Positions 2 through 10,010 of a DNA stretch of 11,861 nucleotides are shown here, in pieces. Under the pieces are notes generated by a model that worked only from the letters and a program-made list of their open reading frames with translations, was not told the DNA's origin and did no database searches. The stretch spans positions 1 to 11,861 of the forward strand of contig JAJRZV010000094.1 in the NCBI GenBank assembly GCA_024275095.1, in the 5' to 3' direction. How positions within the stretch are numbered: position 1 is the stretch's first letter; each line of letters starts with the position of its first letter. The translations under genes and the position numbers were made by a program. This DNA comes from a bacterium (GTDB lineage: Bacteria > JAJRZV01).

Positions 2-316
2 CTCAGGGTTGCTACTGATCTGGATGATGAAGGTTTTGAATATATCACTTCTCTCGTGGGCGAGATAGCCCAGCGGATAAAGGGAAAGTTCCCGGACGCA
101 CGCGTTGTGGAAGTAATGATTCTTGCAGCCCTTGAAATGGCGGAAAGGCTTTACAGGCTGCAACGTGGCGATTCTCAGGATGAAAAAGGGTCCATTGACA
201 TGCGCCTGGAGAGGATAATAGAATGCTTAGACAGGGAAATAAAAAATGGACAGGAAAGGGAAGAACAATTCCCTGGATTGTCCGTGGAGGGCAATAAAAC
301 CCTTGATCCAACATAA
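2..316 (+). CDS. zapA: Cell division protein ZapA, 5' end missing
   Basis: The frame is open from the window edge to TAA at 314-316, giving 104 codons. ZapA proteins are about 100 aa, so only a few N-terminal residues should be missing. ZapA binds FtsZ polymers at the division ring and promotes their bundling. The visible part fits the family: an N-terminal segment with acidic DLDDEGFEYI, then VGEIAQRIKGKFPDA, then the helix VVEVMILAALEMAERLYRLQ that matches the conserved ILAALN.A.EL stretch, then a charged coiled-coil-like helix rich in Arg and Glu. The GTG at 56 is internal to the domain and is not the real start. The last 15 or so codons also encode the 5' arm of the 6S RNA, and a promoter-like site lies inside the gene at 195-224. 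The downstream order 6S RNA then fau matches the classical zapA-ssrS-ygfA arrangement, which supports the call more than the short, variable protein does. Confidence 0.85.
   Translation, partial: LRVATDLDDEGFEYITSLVGEIAQRIKGKFPDARVVEVMILAALEMAERLYRLQRGDSQDEKGSIDMRLERIIECLDREIKNGQEREEQFPGLSVEGNKTLDPT
195..224 (+). promoter_or_regulatory. Sigma-70-type promoter inside zapA, probably for 6S RNA
   Basis: A perfect -35 hexamer TTGACA at 195-200 is followed, after an 18-bp spacer, by TAGAAT at 219-224 (5 of 6 matches to TATAAT). The predicted start is near 231, about 20 nt before the outer helix (251-266) and about 40 nt before the 6S terminal stem (271). A promoter within the upstream gene giving a longer 6S precursor is known in enterobacteria. 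Use of this site is inferred from position only. Confidence 0.55.
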
Positions 317-489
317 AACAAAAAGGGAACGGTCACTTGCTGTGGATGAAACGCCCGGCGAATGCCGGGACTTCAGAAGCAGTAAAACTGTTCCCACCTG
401 AGATTCAGGGTATCAGGGTTTAAGCTCCCACGGCAGTCCGGGGTTAATATTTAAAACTTTTATACTCAGGCTGGTTCTTTCCTTTCCTG
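251..489 (+). other. 16-bp inverted repeat enclosing the 6S RNA
   Basis: Bases 251-266 (CAGGAAAGGGAAGAAC) are complementary to 474-489 over 16 uninterrupted pairs with a single G-U (260/480). The 5' arm is zapA coding sequence. The 3' arm is the leader just upstream of fau. Between them lie the 6S RNA and an AU-rich 30-nt tail (444-473). In a transcript starting near 231 this forms a long double helix outside the 6S terminal stem, shaped like the processing stalks that enclose rRNA precursors. RNase III cleavage is an inference; the complementarity itself is read directly. Confidence 0.7.
268..447 (+). ncRNA. ssrS: 6S RNA (SsrS)
   Basis: 6S RNA mimics an open promoter, binds housekeeping RNA polymerase holoenzyme and templates short pRNAs. 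The 3' half matches the family motif order: AAAACTG (384-390), CACCTGA...CAGGG.ATCAGGG (396-418), then CACGGCAGTCCGGGG (429-443). It folds as expected. The terminal stem pairs 271-282 with 432-443 (12 bp including G-U), then, after one bulged C at 283, 284-287 with 428-431, with weaker pairing on to 291/424. The upper stem pairs 325-333 with 387-395. The apical hairpin is CCCGGC-GAAT-GCCGGG (354-369), with TGAA (347-350) pairing TTCA (372-375) below it. Between the stems is the large central bubble: an unpaired 5' strand (about 292-324) and a 3' strand that can form CCTGA (397-401) with TCAGG (405-409). The size, about 180 nt, and the position between zapA and the cyclo-ligase gene are both canonical. 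The exact ends are estimates. Confidence 0.9.
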
Positions 490-3570: not shown

Positions 3571-5103
3571 TCAACTCTGTGTGGTGTTTCTCGTTGTTGC
3601 AACCCCGTATTTTTTCATCTTGTAAATGAGGGTGGTTCGTTTGATATTCAAAATTTTTGCTGCACGGGAAATATTGTACCCCGCTTCTTCAAGGGCCCGT
3701 ATAATTTCCTGGCGTTCGATGTTTCTCACTCTTGAGGGTAGATCTTCATGGTGTGAGGCCGAATCTTCTGAATTCTTTGAATAGGTTAACTCGCCGATAT
3801 CCCTCAAACGGATGAGAGGTTCGGTACCCAATACCATGGCTCTTTCGAGCACATTTTCCAGCTCCCTCACATTGCCGGGCCACTCGTATTCTATAAGGCG
3901 TTTCATCGCTTCGTCTTCTATTCCTTCGAACCGCCTGTTAAGTTCGATGTTAAAGCGGGCGATAATGTGTTTGACGAGGTGAGGTATATCTTCTTTTCTT
4001 TCCCTGAGCGGCGGTAGATGAATGGATATGACATTAAGTCTGTAGTAAAGGTCTTCACGGAACAGGCCTTTTTCTATCATTTCTTCAAGATTTCTGTTGG
4101 TCGCTGCTATGATACGCACATCTACCCGGGTTGGGGTGGATGCCCCCAGTTTCTGTATTTCTTTCTCCTGAATGGCACGCAGTAGTTTCACCTGGACGGA
4201 AGGGGAAATATCCCCTATTTCATCTAAGAACAGTGTGCCGCCGTGGGCCAGTTCAAAGCTTCCCTTTTTGGAAGCCGTTGCTCCGGTAAAGGCTCCTTTT
4301 TCGTACCCGAAAAGTTCACTTTCCAGCAGGGTCTCAGGGATGGCAGCGCAGGAAAGTTTGACAAAAGGTGCATTTTTACGGCGAGAGTACCGGTGAAGTG
4401 CCTTTGCAACAAGTTCCTTACCTGTACCACTTTCTCCGCGTATGAGAACATTGGCATTGCTTGGAGCTACTTTCTTGATGATGTCTGCAATGGCTTTCAT
4501 TTTCGGACTTTCGCCGATGACCAGCTCGTCTTCACCCTGATATTTTAACTGGTCACGTAGACTTCTATTTTCGTTTATGAGTTCCTGCCTTGAAAAAGCA
4601 TTTTCCAGAGCAATGGCTGCAAGTGAGGCAATGACCGAAATAATTTCTTCATCGTCTCTTGTAAAGTAATAAGGTGGTACTTTTTTGTTAAGGGATTCAA
4701 TGACACCCATCACGCGTCCGGCACGGTTACGTATAGGTACGCAGAGAATATTCTTTGTTTTGTATCCCGTTTGAGCATCCACGTTGCGGTAAAACCTGTT
4801 GTCCTGGTATGCATCTTTAATGTTCAATGTCTCTCCGTGAAGGGCGACATGCCCTGCAATTCCCGTTCCCATGGGAAGGCGTATTTCGCTGATCTCTGCC
4901 CCCTGTGCAATTTTTGACCAGAGCTCGTTTTTTTCTTCGTCTATGATGAACAGCGACGAACGATCTGCTTCAAGAAGCTCGGTTGTTTTGTCCATGATAA
5001 TTTCAAGAAGCTTGTCCACATTTGTTTCAGATGTGAGAAGCCTGGAGAGATTTACCAGCGCCTTGTAAGTGTTGAGACGTTCTTTTAACCTGGCATAAGC
5101 CAT
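3571..5103 (-). CDS. Sigma-54-dependent activator, GAF / AAA+ / Fis-HTH
   Basis: An enhancer-binding protein (510 aa from ATG 5103) that opens RNA polymerase-sigma-54 promoters. Layout: a GAF sensor at about 26-168, containing MGTGIAGHVA and KTKNILCVPI; a short helical linker; an AAA+ domain at about 195-430 with Walker A GESGTGKE (223-230), the sigma-54-contacting loop GAFTGA (270-275), Walker B GGTLFLDEIGD (288-298), and conserved arginines in LFREDLYYRLNV; and a C-terminal Fis-type HTH (about 462-499, EEAGYNISRAAKILNIKRTT). There is no receiver domain, so control should come from a ligand or redox state sensed by GAF, as in NifA or FhlA types. ATG 5103 is preceded by a G-rich run at a suitable distance. 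GTG 5115 would add four residues and lacks a ribosome site. It is divergent from the cyclase operon with a gap of about 130 bp. I found no sigma-54 promoter there, so its targets are probably elsewhere. Confidence 0.95.
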   Translation of the reverse strand: MAYARLKERLNTYKALVNLSRLLTSETNVDKLLEIIMDKTTELLEADRSSLFIIDEEKNELWSKIAQGAEISEIRLPMGTGIAGHVALHGETLNIKDAYQDNRFYRNVDAQTGYKTKNILCVPIRNRAGRVMGVIESLNKKVPPYYFTRDDEEIISVIASLAAIALENAFSRQELINENRSLRDQLKYQGEDELVIGESPKMKAIADIIKKVAPSNANVLIRGESGTGKELVAKALHRYSRRKNAPFVKLSCAAIPETLLESELFGYEKGAFTGATASKKGSFELAHGGTLFLDEIGDISPSVQVKLLRAIQEKEIQKLGASTPTRVDVRIIAATNRNLEEMIEKGLFREDLYYRLNVISIHLPPLRERKEDIPHLVKHIIARFNIELNRRFEGIEDEAMKRLIEYEWPGNVRELENVLERAMVLGTEPLIRLRDIGELTYSKNSEDSASHHEDLPSRVRNIERQEIIRALEEAGYNISRAAKILNIKRTTLIYKMKKYGVATTRNTTQS

Positions 5104-5231
5104 CAGTGCCCCCACTTAAAAGATGTTTTCTACAATAAAATTTTAAAACACTTGGGTCTTTATGAGAAATTTAAAGATAGCAATTCCTATTGTTGACGAA
5201 GTGGGGTGTCGTTGATACTCTAAAGAGCATA

Positions 5232-7661
5232 ATGAAAGAACGACGCCACACCTTTGTCATCGTTACAATCAGTACGATTATTTTCACCGCTATTATGTAT
5301 CTCTGGTTTATGGATTTAAACATTGGTTTTCATTTTTTTCGTGACCTTGATTTGAAGTTTTATGATGTATTTCTCAACCTCAGAGGACAAAGAGATGCAG
5401 ATGAGCGCGTGGTGATTGTGGCCATTGACGAAAAGAGCCTTGAACAGATAGGGCGCTGGCCGTGGAAGAGATCGGTTATCGCGGAAGGGCTGAAAGTTAT
5501 AGAGAAAGATAAACCAAAGGCCATCGGGCTCGATATTGTGTTTGCGGAGCCTGAAAAGACCATCGGTATGGAAAAGATTGAAAATCTGGTTCGCGAACTG
5601 GAAACGGTTGTTGACCATATAGAAGCAAAATTTCAGGCCCGCAAGAAAGATCTGCTCGGGCGCATGGAGGCTTTAACGAGGTCGCTGTATTTACTCAATC
5701 GCCATGCCCCGTCCTCACTCCGCAAGCGAATTATATCCGTGGGGAATCAGGTCTCTTCCATCAACAAGCTCATGAAAGAACTGGACGTGCTTGAGGGCCT
5801 GAAAGAAGAGATGAGGCGGCAGCTTGGCCTGAGCGTGGGGAAGATGAACAACGATGAATACCTTGCCCAGACCATTTCTCAATATGACAACATAGTGCTC
5901 GGGTATTTCTTTTACACCCGCCCGGAAGAGCTCAAAACAGTGGATTTGAGTAAGGTAAAAAAACTGGACAAATACATCCTTCAATCAAAAATTCCAGTGG
6001 TACTGGAAAAGGATAAAACAGTTCTCATGCCGTATAACATGCTGGCCATGCGCCCCAACATAGAAGTCATTTCCCGTGCCAGTAAGTATTCCGGCTTTTT
6101 CAATGCATTGCCGGATAACGATGGAATATTCCGGCACGGCGTGCTTATTGCAAAGTACGGGGACTACTATTTGCCGTCTTTGTCCCTGGAAATGCTTGTG
6201 GTGGGACTTGGCGAGGAGCCCGTTCTCGCCCTGCTCAGTGAAGGTGCGTATTTGCGACTCGGTGATATCAGCATTCCCCTGAGCCTTAAGGGAGAAATGT
6301 TCATCAATTACCGGGGACCCAAGGATACTTATGCAACAATCAGTTTTGCAGACCTCATAAATGGGAAAGTACCGAAAGGAACTTTTAAGGACAAGTACGT
6401 TCTTATCGGAGCCACTGCCACAGCGATATACGACTTGAGACCCACCCCTTTTGATAAAACATACCCTGGAGTAAAGGTGCATGCAAATATCATCGACAAC
6501 ATCCTCAATCGTGAATTTCTCACGCGGGGATTTGGAGCGGATTTCCTTGCTGCAGCTGCCATGATTGTTTTCTGGATATTTATCACGGTGGTGTTTTCCA
6601 GGTTCAACGCCTTTGTAGCGGTGACATTATCGGTGGCAGCTCTTGCAGCTTACGTGCTCGCTGCATACTGGTCATTTACAGCCCAGCGATATGTCATTTC
6701 GGTTGTTTACCCGTCTTCAGTAAACGTTTTCTCGTTTGTGGCGTTACTGGTATTCAAGCTTCTTACCGAGGAGCGAACGAGGAAAAAATACCGAGAGGCG
6801 TTTCAGCGTTATGTAAGTGCATCAGTCGTGGAGGAAATACTTAAAGACCCGTCGAGACTGAAACTTGGAGGTGAAAAAAGAGACCTGACAGTACTTTTTT
6901 CAGATATCCGGGGATTCACGAATATTTCGGAAAGGCTTGACCCCATTCATGTTGCCAATGTACTGCACGAATTTCTTACCCCCATGACAGAGGTGATTTT
7001 TGATCATCTGGGCATGCTGGACAAATACATGGGTGATGCCATCATGGCAGTATTTGGAGCTCCTCTTTATCGGGAAGACCATGCGATATTGGCCTGCAGG
7101 GCAGCATTGACAATGCTTGATAGACTGGTAGAGATAAACGAAAAATTTCGACAGGAGAACCTTCCACCCATTAATATAGGAATTGGAATTAACTCTGGAG
7201 AAATGGTTGTGGGAAACATGGGCTCCAGTATGCTGTTCGACTATACAGTGATAGGAGACGCGGTCAACCTGGGTTCACGGCTGGAAGGGCTCAACAAAAT
7301 ATACGGGACCAATATTATCATCAGTGAGTTTACTAAAGAGAGAGCAGCGGAAGGTGGATTTCTTTTCAGGGAACTGGATCTTGTTCGTGTCAAGGGTAAA
7401 GACGAGCCGGTGAAAATTTACGAACTTGTCAAGTTCGATGGCAGGGAAGATGCCTACCGGGAGGCCATACCTGTATTTGAAAAGGGATTGCACTATTACC
7501 GTAACCAGCGGTGGGATCTTGCCGCAGAACATTTTGAAACGGTGATAGAAATTCTTGGGAAAGATGCACCAAGTCGTCTTTTTATTCAGCGGTGTCAGTG
7601 GTTGAAAGAAAACCCGCCCGGTGATGAATGGGACGGGGTATGGAGGTTTGAGACCAAATGA
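5232..7661 (+). CDS. Membrane adenylate cyclase with CHASE2 sensor (class IIIb)
   Basis: Makes cAMP from ATP; 809 aa from ATG 5232. TM1 is at about residues 7-27. A periplasmic CHASE2 sensor follows (about 40-430; VVIVAIDEKSLEQIGRWPW near the start, PGVKVHANIIDNIL near the end). Three more helices (about 436-509) lead to the cytoplasmic cyclase domain (about 549-701). Catalytic residues are complete: metal aspartates D558 (FSDIRGFT) and D602 (DKYMGDAIMAVFG), adenine-selecting K598, T672 where class IIIa has Asp, which indicates class IIIb, and N679 and R683 (GDAVNLGSRLE). The lysine/threonine pair points to adenylate rather than guanylate cyclase. The C-terminal 75 residues look like a TPR-type helical tail (FEKGLHYYRNQRWDLAAEHF). 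An unusual helical insert of about 95 residues sits in CHASE2 (5562-5846). The start is uncertain: TTG 5190 would add 14 residues. The stop overlaps the next gene as ATGA. Confidence 0.94.
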   Translation: MKERRHTFVIVTISTIIFTAIMYLWFMDLNIGFHFFRDLDLKFYDVFLNLRGQRDADERVVIVAIDEKSLEQIGRWPWKRSVIAEGLKVIEKDKPKAIGLDIVFAEPEKTIGMEKIENLVRELETVVDHIEAKFQARKKDLLGRMEALTRSLYLLNRHAPSSLRKRIISVGNQVSSINKLMKELDVLEGLKEEMRRQLGLSVGKMNNDEYLAQTISQYDNIVLGYFFYTRPEELKTVDLSKVKKLDKYILQSKIPVVLEKDKTVLMPYNMLAMRPNIEVISRASKYSGFFNALPDNDGIFRHGVLIAKYGDYYLPSLSLEMLVVGLGEEPVLALLSEGAYLRLGDISIPLSLKGEMFINYRGPKDTYATISFADLINGKVPKGTFKDKYVLIGATATAIYDLRPTPFDKTYPGVKVHANIIDNILNREFLTRGFGADFLAAAAMIVFWIFITVVFSRFNAFVAVTLSVAALAAYVLAAYWSFTAQRYVISVVYPSSVNVFSFVALLVFKLLTEERTRKKYREAFQRYVSASVVEEILKDPSRLKLGGEKRDLTVLFSDIRGFTNISERLDPIHVANVLHEFLTPMTEVIFDHLGMLDKYMGDAIMAVFGAPLYREDHAILACRAALTMLDRLVEINEKFRQENLPPINIGIGINSGEMVVGNMGSSMLFDYTVIGDAVNLGSRLEGLNKIYGTNIIISEFTKERAAEGGFLFRELDLVRVKGKDEPVKIYELVKFDGREDAYREAIPVFEKGLHYYRNQRWDLAAEHFETVIEILGKDAPSRLFIQRCQWLKENPPGDEWDGVWRFETK

Positions 7662-8518
7662 CAGCTTTACCAACGGAAAAGATTAAAGAAATTATGAAAA
7701 AAAGTTACCTCTTCCAGGCTTTTGATGAAGGCGAGCTGAACGAATTTCTTGAACGTGCCGGTGTGAAAGAATTTGCGCCCGGTGAAATAATTATTCGCGA
7801 AGGTGAAAAAGGCTCATCCATGTTTTTTATAGTTGATGGTCAGGTTGAGGTATTTACCGACAGAGATGGAAGGCATTTTTTAGATATTTTGAAAACCGGC
7901 GATTTTTTTGGTGAATTCAGCCTTTTTACGGGTGGTACCCGTCATGCAACTGTTAAAGCAAAAACAGAGGTTACGTGCCTGGAGATTTCACAGGATTTGT
8001 TCGAAGATTTCGCAGAAAGGAATGAAGAATTTTCAAAGGTTGTTGTGGATTTTTACAAAATTCGAGTGCTCGACACTCTGTTGGCCCACACAGAATTGTT
8101 CGGAATGTTGAGGCCCCACGAGCGTAAAGAAGTGCTGGCTTCTTTTGAGCTCGAGGTGGTGGATAAAGGAGTTGAAATCGTGCGGGAAGGCGAGGAGGGT
8201 GACGCTCTTTACGTGATTAAGAGCGGTCGCGTGGAGGTGATTACGACGGACGCAGAGGGAAATGAGGTGAAAATTGCGGAACTGGGCGGCGGTGATTTCT
8301 TTGGAGAGATTGCTTTGATTACAGGGCGTCCCCGGACGGCTACGGTGCGAGCGATAACGAAAGTTCGCCTGATGAAAATGTCACGCGAGGCATTTGAGCA
8401 GATATGCGAGAGGTTCCCGGAAGTTCGAGTGAAGGCAGAGGAGATCGTGGAGAAGCGTGCTAAAGATACAATACACACACTTATTCATGCTGACCGCGGA
8501 AAGGCTGGTCGTCCGTGA
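7658..8518 (+). CDS. Tandem cyclic-nucleotide-binding domain protein
   Basis: A 286-aa soluble protein made of two CNB (CAP/PKA-R type) domains with no recognisable output domain. CNB1 spans about residues 18-135 with phosphate-binding cassette FGEFSLFTGGTRHATV (84-99; E86, R95). CNB2 spans about 145-265 with FGEIALITGRPRTATV (215-230; E217, R226). Both cassettes keep the Glu that contacts the ribose hydroxyl and the Arg that contacts the cyclic phosphate, so both sites should bind cAMP or cGMP. There is no helix-turn-helix after either domain, so it is not a CRP-type transcription factor. The layout recalls the regulatory subunit of protein kinase A, but no kinase is present in the window. 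It starts at ATG 7658 in an ATGA overlap with the cyclase, with GGAGG at 7642-7646, which strongly implies that it reads the cAMP made by its neighbour. The binding partner is unknown. Confidence 0.93.
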   Translation: MTALPTEKIKEIMKKSYLFQAFDEGELNEFLERAGVKEFAPGEIIIREGEKGSSMFFIVDGQVEVFTDRDGRHFLDILKTGDFFGEFSLFTGGTRHATVKAKTEVTCLEISQDLFEDFAERNEEFSKVVVDFYKIRVLDTLLAHTELFGMLRPHERKEVLASFELEVVDKGVEIVREGEEGDALYVIKSGRVEVITTDAEGNEVKIAELGGGDFFGEIALITGRPRTATVRAITKVRLMKMSREAFEQICERFPEVRVKAEEIVEKRAKDTIHTLIHADRGKAGRP

Positions 8519-10010
8519 CTGTTCGGAATTAAAAAGATATCTGAAGGGAGAAGTTACCTCTCATGCAAATGTTACTGCTGCGTTACGAAATGTACTGAAA
8601 GAAATTTCTAAAAAATTATCACTTCCTGGTTTAAGCGTGTACTCCCACCGGATGAAGTCTTTTATTATGGGGTCTGCCCCCAGGGCTCTAAAATACCAGC
8701 GATTACGTTTTTCGACTCGGCCCGGAATTCGATTTCTCCGGATATCTGGTAATAACTCTCTGAAGAACTGGCCATATCTGGTGGTGGGCCAGGGAGTGCG
8801 GAGTTTCGTCCTTGTTCCCTCCAGAATTACCGATAATACCTTACCCATGCTGGAGAAATTTTCACGCGCGGCCCATCTGCTGGAGCCCCTTCTCTCCAGG
8901 TACCAGGAAGAATTCGTGCGCAAGCAGTTTCAGAGAGATATGGAATACGTGTTAAAGGTGGGTCTTATTCTCAATTCCACGCTTTCAAGGCGTACCATTA
9001 TGAGGCGTGCTATGGAATATATCACCGAACTCCTCAATGCCGAGGCAGGTTCCCTGTTGCTGGTGGACCATGAAAAAGGTGAACTCTATTTTGAAATAGC
9101 CCTGGGAGACAGGGGAGCGAGGGTAAAAGAGATACGCCTGAAGATTGGCGAGGGAATTGCCGGGTGGGTTGCCAAATCGGGTAAACCCACTGTCGTTAAC
9201 GATGTGGAAAGAGATAAGAGATGGTACCGAAAAGCTGATGAAAAAACAAAATTCAGAACCCGAAACATCCTGTGTGTTCCTGTAAAGGTAAAAACTCGGG
9301 TGGAAGGCGTGCTCCAGGCACTGAATAAAAAGACAGGAGATTTTAACAATTACGACCTTAAAATCTTCCAGACATTTGCTGCCCAGGTGGCTATCGCCCT
9401 TGAAAATGCACGGCTTTATGAAGAGCTGAAAAATACGTTTATTGAGACAGCCGAGGCGCTTGCCACATCCATTGAAGCACGTGACCCTTACACAGGCGGG
9501 CATACCAAGCGCGTTGTGCATTACTCGCTTGCTGTAGGGCGCGAGCTTGGCCTGGACGAAGAAGAACTGGAACAACTTGAGGTTGCTGCGGTGCTTCATG
9601 ATATTGGCAAAATAGGTGTGGACGATGCTGTACTGAGAAAGCCAGGAAAGCTGGAGCCGGACGAGCTTGCCCAGATGCGGCGTCATCCCGAGATCGGGGC
9701 GGACATTCTCTCCAAGGTGGAGGCCCTGAAGGATATTATTCCCGCGGTACTTCATCATCAGGAAGCATACAACGGTTCGGGTTATCCCATGGGGCTCAGC
9801 AATGACGACATTCCCCTTTTTGCACGGATTATTGCAGTGGTGGATACATTTGATGCAATGACCACTGACAGGCCCTACAGGAAGGCCTTGCCCCATGAGG
9901 TGGCCCTGGACGAGTTGAAAAGGTGTTCCGGCAGTCAATTTGACCCTCAGGTGGTTGATGCATTCATCCGCGCTTACGAAAAAGGAATGATAACAGGTTT
10001 GAAAGTCTAA
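8487..10010 (+). CDS. GAF / HD-GYP cyclic-dinucleotide phosphodiesterase
   Basis: A 507-aa predicted cytoplasmic protein. Residues 1-150 are not clearly assignable. Their pattern (a helix ALRNVLKEISKKL, then strands, then a closing helix FSRAAHLLEPLLSRYQEEF) looks like a worn GAF domain. A clear GAF follows (about 165-308; GEGIAGWVA, FRTRNILCVPV). The HD-GYP domain covers about 325-500, with ARDPYTGGHTKRV, LHDIGKIGV (H371, D372), RRHPEIGADIL and SGYPMGL. HD-GYP enzymes hydrolyse c-di-GMP, some of them 3',3'-cGAMP, with an iron-type metal centre. The usual HHExxDGxGYP block reads HHQEAYNGSGYP here, so activity is likely but not certain. The start is ambiguous: ATG 8487 overlaps the upstream gene by 32 nt but lacks a ribosome site, while GTG 8457 has GGAG four bases ahead. 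Both overlap, so coupling to the CNB gene holds either way. Confidence 0.92.
   Translation: MLTAERLVVRDCSELKRYLKGEVTSHANVTAALRNVLKEISKKLSLPGLSVYSHRMKSFIMGSAPRALKYQRLRFSTRPGIRFLRISGNNSLKNWPYLVVGQGVRSFVLVPSRITDNTLPMLEKFSRAAHLLEPLLSRYQEEFVRKQFQRDMEYVLKVGLILNSTLSRRTIMRRAMEYITELLNAEAGSLLLVDHEKGELYFEIALGDRGARVKEIRLKIGEGIAGWVAKSGKPTVVNDVERDKRWYRKADEKTKFRTRNILCVPVKVKTRVEGVLQALNKKTGDFNNYDLKIFQTFAAQVAIALENARLYEELKNTFIETAEALATSIEARDPYTGGHTKRVVHYSLAVGRELGLDEEELEQLEVAAVLHDIGKIGVDDAVLRKPGKLEPDELAQMRRHPEIGADILSKVEALKDIIPAVLHHQEAYNGSGYPMGLSNDDIPLFARIIAVVDTFDAMTTDRPYRKALPHEVALDELKRCSGSQFDPQVVDAFIRAYEKGMITGLKV

Follow-up and report, generated by a model that had tools for sequence, protein, structure and literature searches.

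In most bacteria, cAMP is thought to work chiefly through CRP-type transcription factors. Gating of c-di-GMP enzymes by cAMP is biochemically established for three proteins, Bd1971, Lcd1 and Tlr0485 (PMC6717892; PMC8846402). Bd1971 of Bdellovibrio bacteriovorus is a c-di-GMP phosphodiesterase of the cNMP_binding-EAL type (PMC6717892), in which a CNB-type cAMP receptor governs a phosphodiesterase with no transcription factor in between, as is proposed here. In Bd1971, however, the CNB is fused to the EAL domain in one chain, whereas the locus described here encodes a separate tandem-CNB protein (P0002) and a separate HD-GYP protein (P0003) together with a cyclase (P0001). A review presents Tlr0485 of Thermosynechococcus vulcanus as a cAMP-activated GAF-HD-GYP c-di-GMP phosphodiesterase, with GAF joined to HD-GYP as in P0003, and makes no mention of a tandem-CNB partner (PMC8846402); P0003 differs in having one recognised GAF behind an N-terminal region without an assigned domain. 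Lcd1 of Leptospira interrogans is a cAMP-dependent GAF-GGDEF protein, the GAF of which (PDB 5W10; PMC11800159) matches that of P0003 over its full length; its output is a diguanylate cyclase, and the sign of its effect is therefore opposite. The nearest solved structure to the GAF and HD-GYP domains of P0003 is PmGH of Persephonella marina (4mcw), a GAF-HD-GYP protein with Glu185 and His277 where P0003 has Tyr and Gln. Two CNBs in tandem also make up the regulatory modules of PKA and cGMP-dependent kinase, the best PDB matches of P0002, although P0002 shows no recognisable kinase, inhibitor or dimerisation segment and its proposed target is a phosphodiesterase.

Control of c-di-GMP enzymes by cAMP is known in the form of domain fusions, and a separate tandem-CNB partner would be a new variation on it. 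The domains and the order of the three genes are observed; from them we tentatively propose, at a little below an even chance, that the trio is a conserved cAMP module in which the CNB protein would gate a cyclic-dinucleotide phosphodiesterase.

Three overlapping genes and their products

The window, that is, the whole stretch of 11,861 nucleotides analysed, carries the trio on its plus strand (Table 1). The preliminary description had placed three overlapping genes here, encoding a CHASE2 cyclase, a protein with two intact CNB domains and no output domain, and a GAF/HD-GYP protein, and the open reading frames, Pfam and the pocket residues bear it out. It had also taken the overlaps to imply stoichiometric synthesis. 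The overlaps suggest translational coupling, although stoichiometry does not follow from them. If P0003 starts at GTG, which is preceded by GGAG at 8449-8452, its overlap with the CNB gene extends to 62 nt; no clear Shine-Dalgarno sequence precedes the ATG.

Table 1. Positions of the trio, its overlaps and the divergent neighbour in the window
Feature	Position	Strand	Details
Sigma-54 activator P0004, GAF-AAA-Fis HTH	3571..5115	-	divergent from trio
Predicted CHASE2-class III adenylate cyclase P0001	5190..7661	+	start TTG 5190 or ATG 5232, in frame; stop 7661
P0001 domains	CHASE2 ~5307-6590; cyclase domain 6879-7421	+	Pfam
Cyclase/CNB start-stop overlap ATGA, 4 nt	7658..7661	+	TGA 7659-7661, ATG 7658-7660
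Stand-alone tandem CNB protein P0002, 286 aa	7658..8518	+	CNB-B ~8156-8413
CNB/HD-GYP overlap, 32 nt	8487..8518	+	ATG 8487 vs CNB stop 8518
GAF/HD-GYP protein P0003	8457..10010	+	start GTG 8457 or ATG 8487
P0003 domains	GAF 8982-9404; HD-GYP 9459-9953	+	Pfam
Gln codon at PmGH H277 metal-ligand position, motif HHQEAYNGSGYP	9759..9761	+	alignment to PmGH

P0001 is a predicted CHASE2 class III adenylate cyclase. Pfam finds CHASE2 (2.5e-63) and Guanylate_cyc (2.2e-24). One hydrophobic stretch lies ahead of CHASE2, and three more separate it from the cyclase domain. Its motifs FSDIRGFT, LDKYMGDAIMAVF and DYTVIGDAVNLGSR fit class III adenylate cyclases, with the metal-binding Asp pair and the adenylate-type Lys/Asp and Asn/Arg residues in place, and its top PDB matches are adenylate cyclases.

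In P0002, Pfam detects two cNMP_binding stretches (2.4e-53) and no further domain, and both stretches are matched by its closest PDB relatives, cGMP-dependent kinases and PKA regulatory subunits. Each CNB retains Glu (in FGE) and Arg (in the second half) of the phosphate-binding cassette (FFGEFSLFTGGTRHATV; FFGEIALITGRPRTATV), as expected of cAMP-binding pockets, and both are predicted to bind cAMP. Wherever the sequence is readable, CNB proteins linked to HD-GYP genes retain the Arg in both pockets, and several unlinked ones have lost it from CNB-B (T in G043, G048 and a paralog from the same genome as the window, C in G296 and G159). The N-terminal TPR-like region present in relatives is absent from P0002, an observation that counts against the gating model. 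A scan of the genome contigs with one protein returned distant single-CNB matches only. A TAG in G065 and G066 was not taken as recoding, since in the translations it falls before the probable start of the CNB gene or past its end.

P0003 contains GAF_2 (3.3e-22) and HD_5 (1.5e-42) domains, and its best PDB match over both is PmGH (E 3.5e-59). Neither Pfam nor hhalign gave an assignable domain in its first ~150 residues, and a degenerate GAF was rejected there (hhalign probability 0.2%). AlphaFold runs on single sequences gave a mean pLDDT of 35 for P0003 and 43 for P0002, and these models were set aside.

Gene order in other genomes

The complete trio occurs in the window, in all three genomes of another phylum (G039, G067 and G068) and, within a third phylum, in G402 and G474, where identity to the window is 62-63% in the cyclase domain and 68-69% in HD-GYP. 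Recurrence in other phyla makes this order more than a coincidence. A CNB-CNB gene followed by an HD-GYP gene, with no adjacent cyclase, is found on the same strand and in the same order in 9/9 genomes of the G019 phylum, and also in G421 and G457. Junctions in related loci are likewise short overlaps or gaps, with overlaps of 4 nt in L063 and L207 and of 14 nt in L055. CNB and phosphodiesterase domains were nowhere joined in one chain in the window or in the linked loci read, and no CNB/HD-GYP fusion appeared among the loci inspected.

Linkage of the CNB and HD-GYP genes is thus conserved, in every genome of two small phyla (nine and three) as well as in two families belonging to a large one, and this supports the earlier idea of a module connecting cAMP to cyclic dinucleotides. 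The expectation that relatives keep the genes together held to this extent and failed for the more distant tandem-CNB homologues, most of which have no HD-GYP neighbour; this also counts against the gating model. In five other families, which lack a CNB gene at the locus, a CHASE2 cyclase lies near a GAF-HD-GYP gene. The CNB protein is therefore inessential to the pairing of cyclase and HD-GYP, another point against gating through it. A CHASE2 cyclase lies within three genes of a GAF-HD-GYP gene in 7 of 21 other families, where a rough model predicts about 0.2-0.5.

A possible cAMP route to a cyclic-dinucleotide phosphodiesterase

In the proposed mechanism, the membrane CHASE2 cyclase would pick up an extracytoplasmic cue and produce cAMP, and P0002, which resembles in architecture the part of a PKA regulatory subunit that binds cAMP but has no kinase or DNA-binding domain, would load cAMP in both pockets. 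The loaded protein might then alter in trans the activity of the co-translated P0003, by which cAMP would shift c-di-GMP (or cGAMP) levels. Through its own GAF, P0003 perhaps receives cAMP as a further input. In favour of the gating model we count the recurring gene order with its short overlaps or gaps, the Arg retained in both pockets of linked CNB proteins, the CRP-like and cAMP-phosphodiesterase-like genes at the loci of relatives, the clustering of CHASE2 cyclases with GAF-HD-GYP genes, the genome's set of second-messenger proteins and the three characterised cAMP-gated enzymes. For this trio we infer from sequence the binding of cAMP, the contact between CNB and HD-GYP proteins, the direction and sign of the effect, and the substrate. 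If true, the operon would constitute a post-translational cAMP pathway directly linking two global second messengers in lineages in which both are unstudied, and would suggest what some members of the large TPR-CNB-CNB family, which lack an output domain, might do.

An unlikely but serious alternative is that cAMP acts directly on the GAF of P0003, as in Tlr0485 (PMC8846402), and that P0002 has another target or serves only as a cAMP buffer. The GAF resembles those of Lcd1 (E 1.3e-25) and CyaB2 (1ykd, E 5.3e-29), and, like that of Lcd1, it ends its NKFDE motif in Leu, while N, K, F and D are retained; the five families without a CNB gene also fit direct action. Similar motifs, however, occur in GAFs with no known cyclic nucleotide binding, and Arg291, an adenine contact of CyaB2 (PMC4411481), aligns with Ala in P0003. 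Direct action would also leave unexplained why CNB and HD-GYP genes are strictly paired in the G019 phylum, whose loci have no adjacent cyclase.

It is also rather unlikely that the genes are simply co-expressed parts of a regulon, in which the CNB or TPR-CNB protein would be a cAMP-dependent adaptor acting elsewhere and the HD-GYP protein would lower c-di-GMP independently. The unlinked distant relatives speak for this, as do the TPR regions of relatives, which hint at other partners, and the clusters of relatives, which hold a CRP-like gene (f60, f271) and a class-II cAMP-phosphodiesterase-like MBL gene close to HD-GYP or the CHASE2 cyclase. Yet in four phyla the genes adjoin directly in a constant order, frequently overlapping and even at loci away from the cyclase, which suggests a coupling tighter than shared regulation.

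The HD-GYP domain named in the preliminary description is present, although its metal site departs in part from the canonical one. An HD-GYP phosphodiesterase should show HD, an H...GYP motif and at least seven metal ligands; P0003 has the GYP motif and the equivalents of PmGH D183, H189, H221, D222, K225, H250, H276 and D305, and Gln replaces H277; Tyr stands at the E185 position, as in the Y/F subfamily (PMC4159591). Because the PmGH H277A variant is nearly inactive (PMC4159591), P0003 might be a catalytically altered receptor for c-di-GMP or cGAMP, exerting feedback on the cyclase or the CNB protein. The Gln, which counts against the gating model, is common to the linked relatives G402, G438 and G474, the closest trio relatives among them. 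We consider a receptor role quite improbable, however, since the eight equivalents listed are present, Gln might still bind metal, and the trio relatives G039, G067 and G068 keep the canonical HH.

A Pycsar-like defence pair of cyclase and CNB effector was rejected as scarcely credible: the PADLOC models for both match the shared cyclase and CNB domains only, P0002 has no TIR, transmembrane or other toxic effector domain, P0001 combines a membrane-bound CHASE2 architecture with motifs of the adenylate type, and an HD-GYP partner is foreign to such systems.

The divergent regulator and the second-messenger repertoire

Tied to the trio by position and GAF type only, the divergent activator P0004 is a possible second cAMP reader; the NKFDE motif of its GAF is complete, and in the PDB P0004 is most similar to the two cAMP-binding GAFs of CyaB2 (1ykd, E 8.9e-49). 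Matches to the sigma-54 promoter motif in the window were not above chance, and none fell in the intergenic gap 5116-5189. The genome encodes 5 GGDEF, 6 HD-GYP and 6 PilZ proteins, with no match to EAL. As a Hypr-like GGDEF is also encoded, the putative substrate of P0003 could well be cGAMP in place of c-di-GMP.

Architecture and surroundings of the trio

The window is a complete contig (C60, 11,861 bases) of a 2.45-Mb genome, for which the genome search returned no relative nearer than the same domain. The three overlapping open reading frames of the preliminary description are present, with an ATGA overlap between the P0001 and P0002 genes and one of 32 or 62 nt before the HD-GYP gene. Its domain assignments agree with the Pfam matches: CHASE2 and Guanylate_cyc in P0001, which has adenylate-type cyclase motifs; two cNMP_binding stretches and nothing further in P0002, consistent with two CNB domains and no output domain, the pockets of both retaining Glu and Arg; and GAF and HD_5 in P0003. 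A helical insert of ~90 residues apparently lies within the CHASE2 domain of P0001, and alignments with most relatives start downstream of it. The GAF domain of the adjoining sigma-54 activator has a complete NKFDE motif and the cAMP-binding CyaB2 GAF pair as its top PDB match (E 8.9e-49), on account of which the activator may be a cAMP-responsive regulator.

Features of the window and of related loci (window positions unless a locus is named)
Feature	Position	Strand	Remark
6S RNA	267-448	+	RF00013, 89.4 bits; just upstream of 5-formyltetrahydrofolate cyclo-ligase gene
Sigma-54 activator	3571-5115	-	divergent from trio
P0001, CHASE2 cyclase	5190/5232-7661	+	
Helical insert of P0001	about 5560-5835		
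ATGA overlap	7658-7661		
P0002, tandem-CNB protein	7658-8518	+	
P0003, GAF/HD-GYP protein	8457/8487-10010	+	
Class-II cAMP-phosphodiesterase-like MBL gene	L207 9996-10760; L126-L128, L147, L148, L150		near GAF-HD-GYP or adjoining CHASE2 cyclases, several families
Second tandem-CNB gene, cyclase flanked by two (G039)	L054 6993-11067		upstream of cyclase
PilZ-like gene (G019)	L039 8650-9174	+	divergent from CNB gene; identified by eye
GAF-GGDEF protein, window genome	L229 (G000:C27:1-900)		

Conservation of the gene order

P0002 was searched against 59 and then 386 sampled genomes, and the neighbourhoods of its matches fell into three classes. Conservation of the three-gene order, proposed earlier as a check, holds in part: the full order of CHASE2 cyclase, tandem CNB and GAF-HD-GYP (class a) occurs in G039, G067 and G068, all three sampled genomes of their phylum, and in G402 and G474 of another phylum, but the tandem-CNB genes of class (c) have no HD-GYP gene nearby (G043, G048, G179, G296, G243, G159, G100, G371, G107 and most matches in the G179 phylum), an N-terminal TPR-like region being usual among them. 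In class (b), CNB precedes HD-GYP with no adjoining cyclase in 9/9 genomes of the G019 phylum (the G061 pair is split over two contigs, and the flank read was limited to 1.5 kb in some of the nine), as well as in G457 and G421. The CNB and HD-GYP genes of G438 are located at a contig start.

Among P0003 homologues collected from 386 genomes, a CHASE2 cyclase without a CNB gene adjoins the homologue in f79 (G356, G087, G228), f131 (G139, G275) and f103 (G111), and is found at a distance of three genes in G192 and G037. Cyclase and HD-GYP are close in 7 of 21 families, where a rough model of 2-5 CHASE2 cyclases per 2.5 Mb predicts about 0.2-0.5, so the number is far beyond chance. CHASE2 cyclases are frequent (159/386 genomes), and from their side linkage is rarer: a CNB or HD-GYP gene lies no more than 1.5 kb from only a few of the best 30. 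DUF3307 membrane-protein genes accompany the cyclase and GAF-HD-GYP genes at L132-L134, L140 and L141 (a Pfam match for L141, which also has a weak DUF2254 match; the others by eye). At L126, L127 and L128, of three other families, close relatives of P0003 (53-58% identity) directly follow genes that by eye appear to be trpA.

In midpoint-rooted trees, CNB-linked HD-GYPs group with trp-linked ones and G092 (SH-aLRT 92-100), and cyclase-linked HD-GYPs without a CNB gene occupy three separate branches of the other group. HD-GYP-linked CNB proteins are not one clade, that of the window grouping with the G019 phylum (SH-aLRT 89), so that the linkage was possibly gained or lost several times.

Other cAMP-related genes occur near the HD-GYP gene, although not in the window locus itself. 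A single-CNB, CRP-like gene follows it in f60 and f271. A metallo-beta-lactamase-fold (MBL) gene matching PDEase_II (2.9e-14), whose product has a 3',5'-cyclic-nucleotide phosphodiesterase as its sole PDB match, is downstream of HD-GYP in f271, f290 and the trp-operon-linked G133, G179 and G148, close by in G068, and next to a CHASE2 cyclase in G140, G160 and G297. Judged from these assignments, cAMP is the theme common to the neighbourhoods even where no cyclase adjoins.

Proposed control of P0003 and its possible substrate

In the best-supported reading, P0001 would make cAMP, P0002 would read it, and P0002 would control the presumably co-translated P0003, whose GAF is possibly a second input; the analysis shows the domains, overlaps and conservation, and we infer binding, contact, sign and substrate. 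The phosphate-binding Arg is kept in both pockets of HD-GYP-linked CNB proteins, where read, and is lost from CNB-B in several unlinked ones. The main rival is that cAMP would act on P0003 directly through its own GAF, as in Tlr0485 (PMC8846402). This domain matches the cAMP-binding GAF of Lcd1 full-length; of the NKFDE motif it retains N, K, F and D and has an Lcd1-like Leu at the last position, but it lacks the Arg by which CyaB2 contacts adenine (PMC4411481). The CNB-mediated and direct modes are compatible, and the two linkage patterns, HD-GYP with CNB and no cyclase or with cyclase and no CNB, fit a family of modules that can use one receptor or the other. Cyclic AMP control of c-di-GMP enzymes is already known from the fused proteins Bd1971, Lcd1 and Tlr0485; neither the stand-alone tandem-CNB partner nor the operon was found described in full-text searches of part of the literature, in line with the earlier statement that no characterised system was known to have exactly this trio.

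At the ligand positions of PmGH, the GAF-HD-GYP of Persephonella marina, P0003 has Tyr for E185, which fits the Y/F subfamily (PMC4159591), and Gln for H277. Catalytic activity cannot be assumed because H277A kills PmGH (PMC4159591), although the same Gln in G402, G438 and G474 argues against random decay. The window genome has 5 GGDEF, 6 HD-GYP and 6 PilZ matches and none to EAL, so that its c-di-GMP turnover probably rests on HD-GYPs. One of these GGDEF proteins, the GAF-GGDEF protein L229, has in place of the canonical Asp the Ser (GHLIGS...GGDEF) that marks Hypr-type cGAMP synthases (PMC6456294); L229 is a candidate cGAMP synthase, which makes cGAMP, the alternative substrate put forward earlier, a live option. 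The HD-GYP domain of P0003 alone matches V-cGAP3, a cGAMP phosphodiesterase, somewhat better than PmGH (1.3e-44 vs 2.6e-37).
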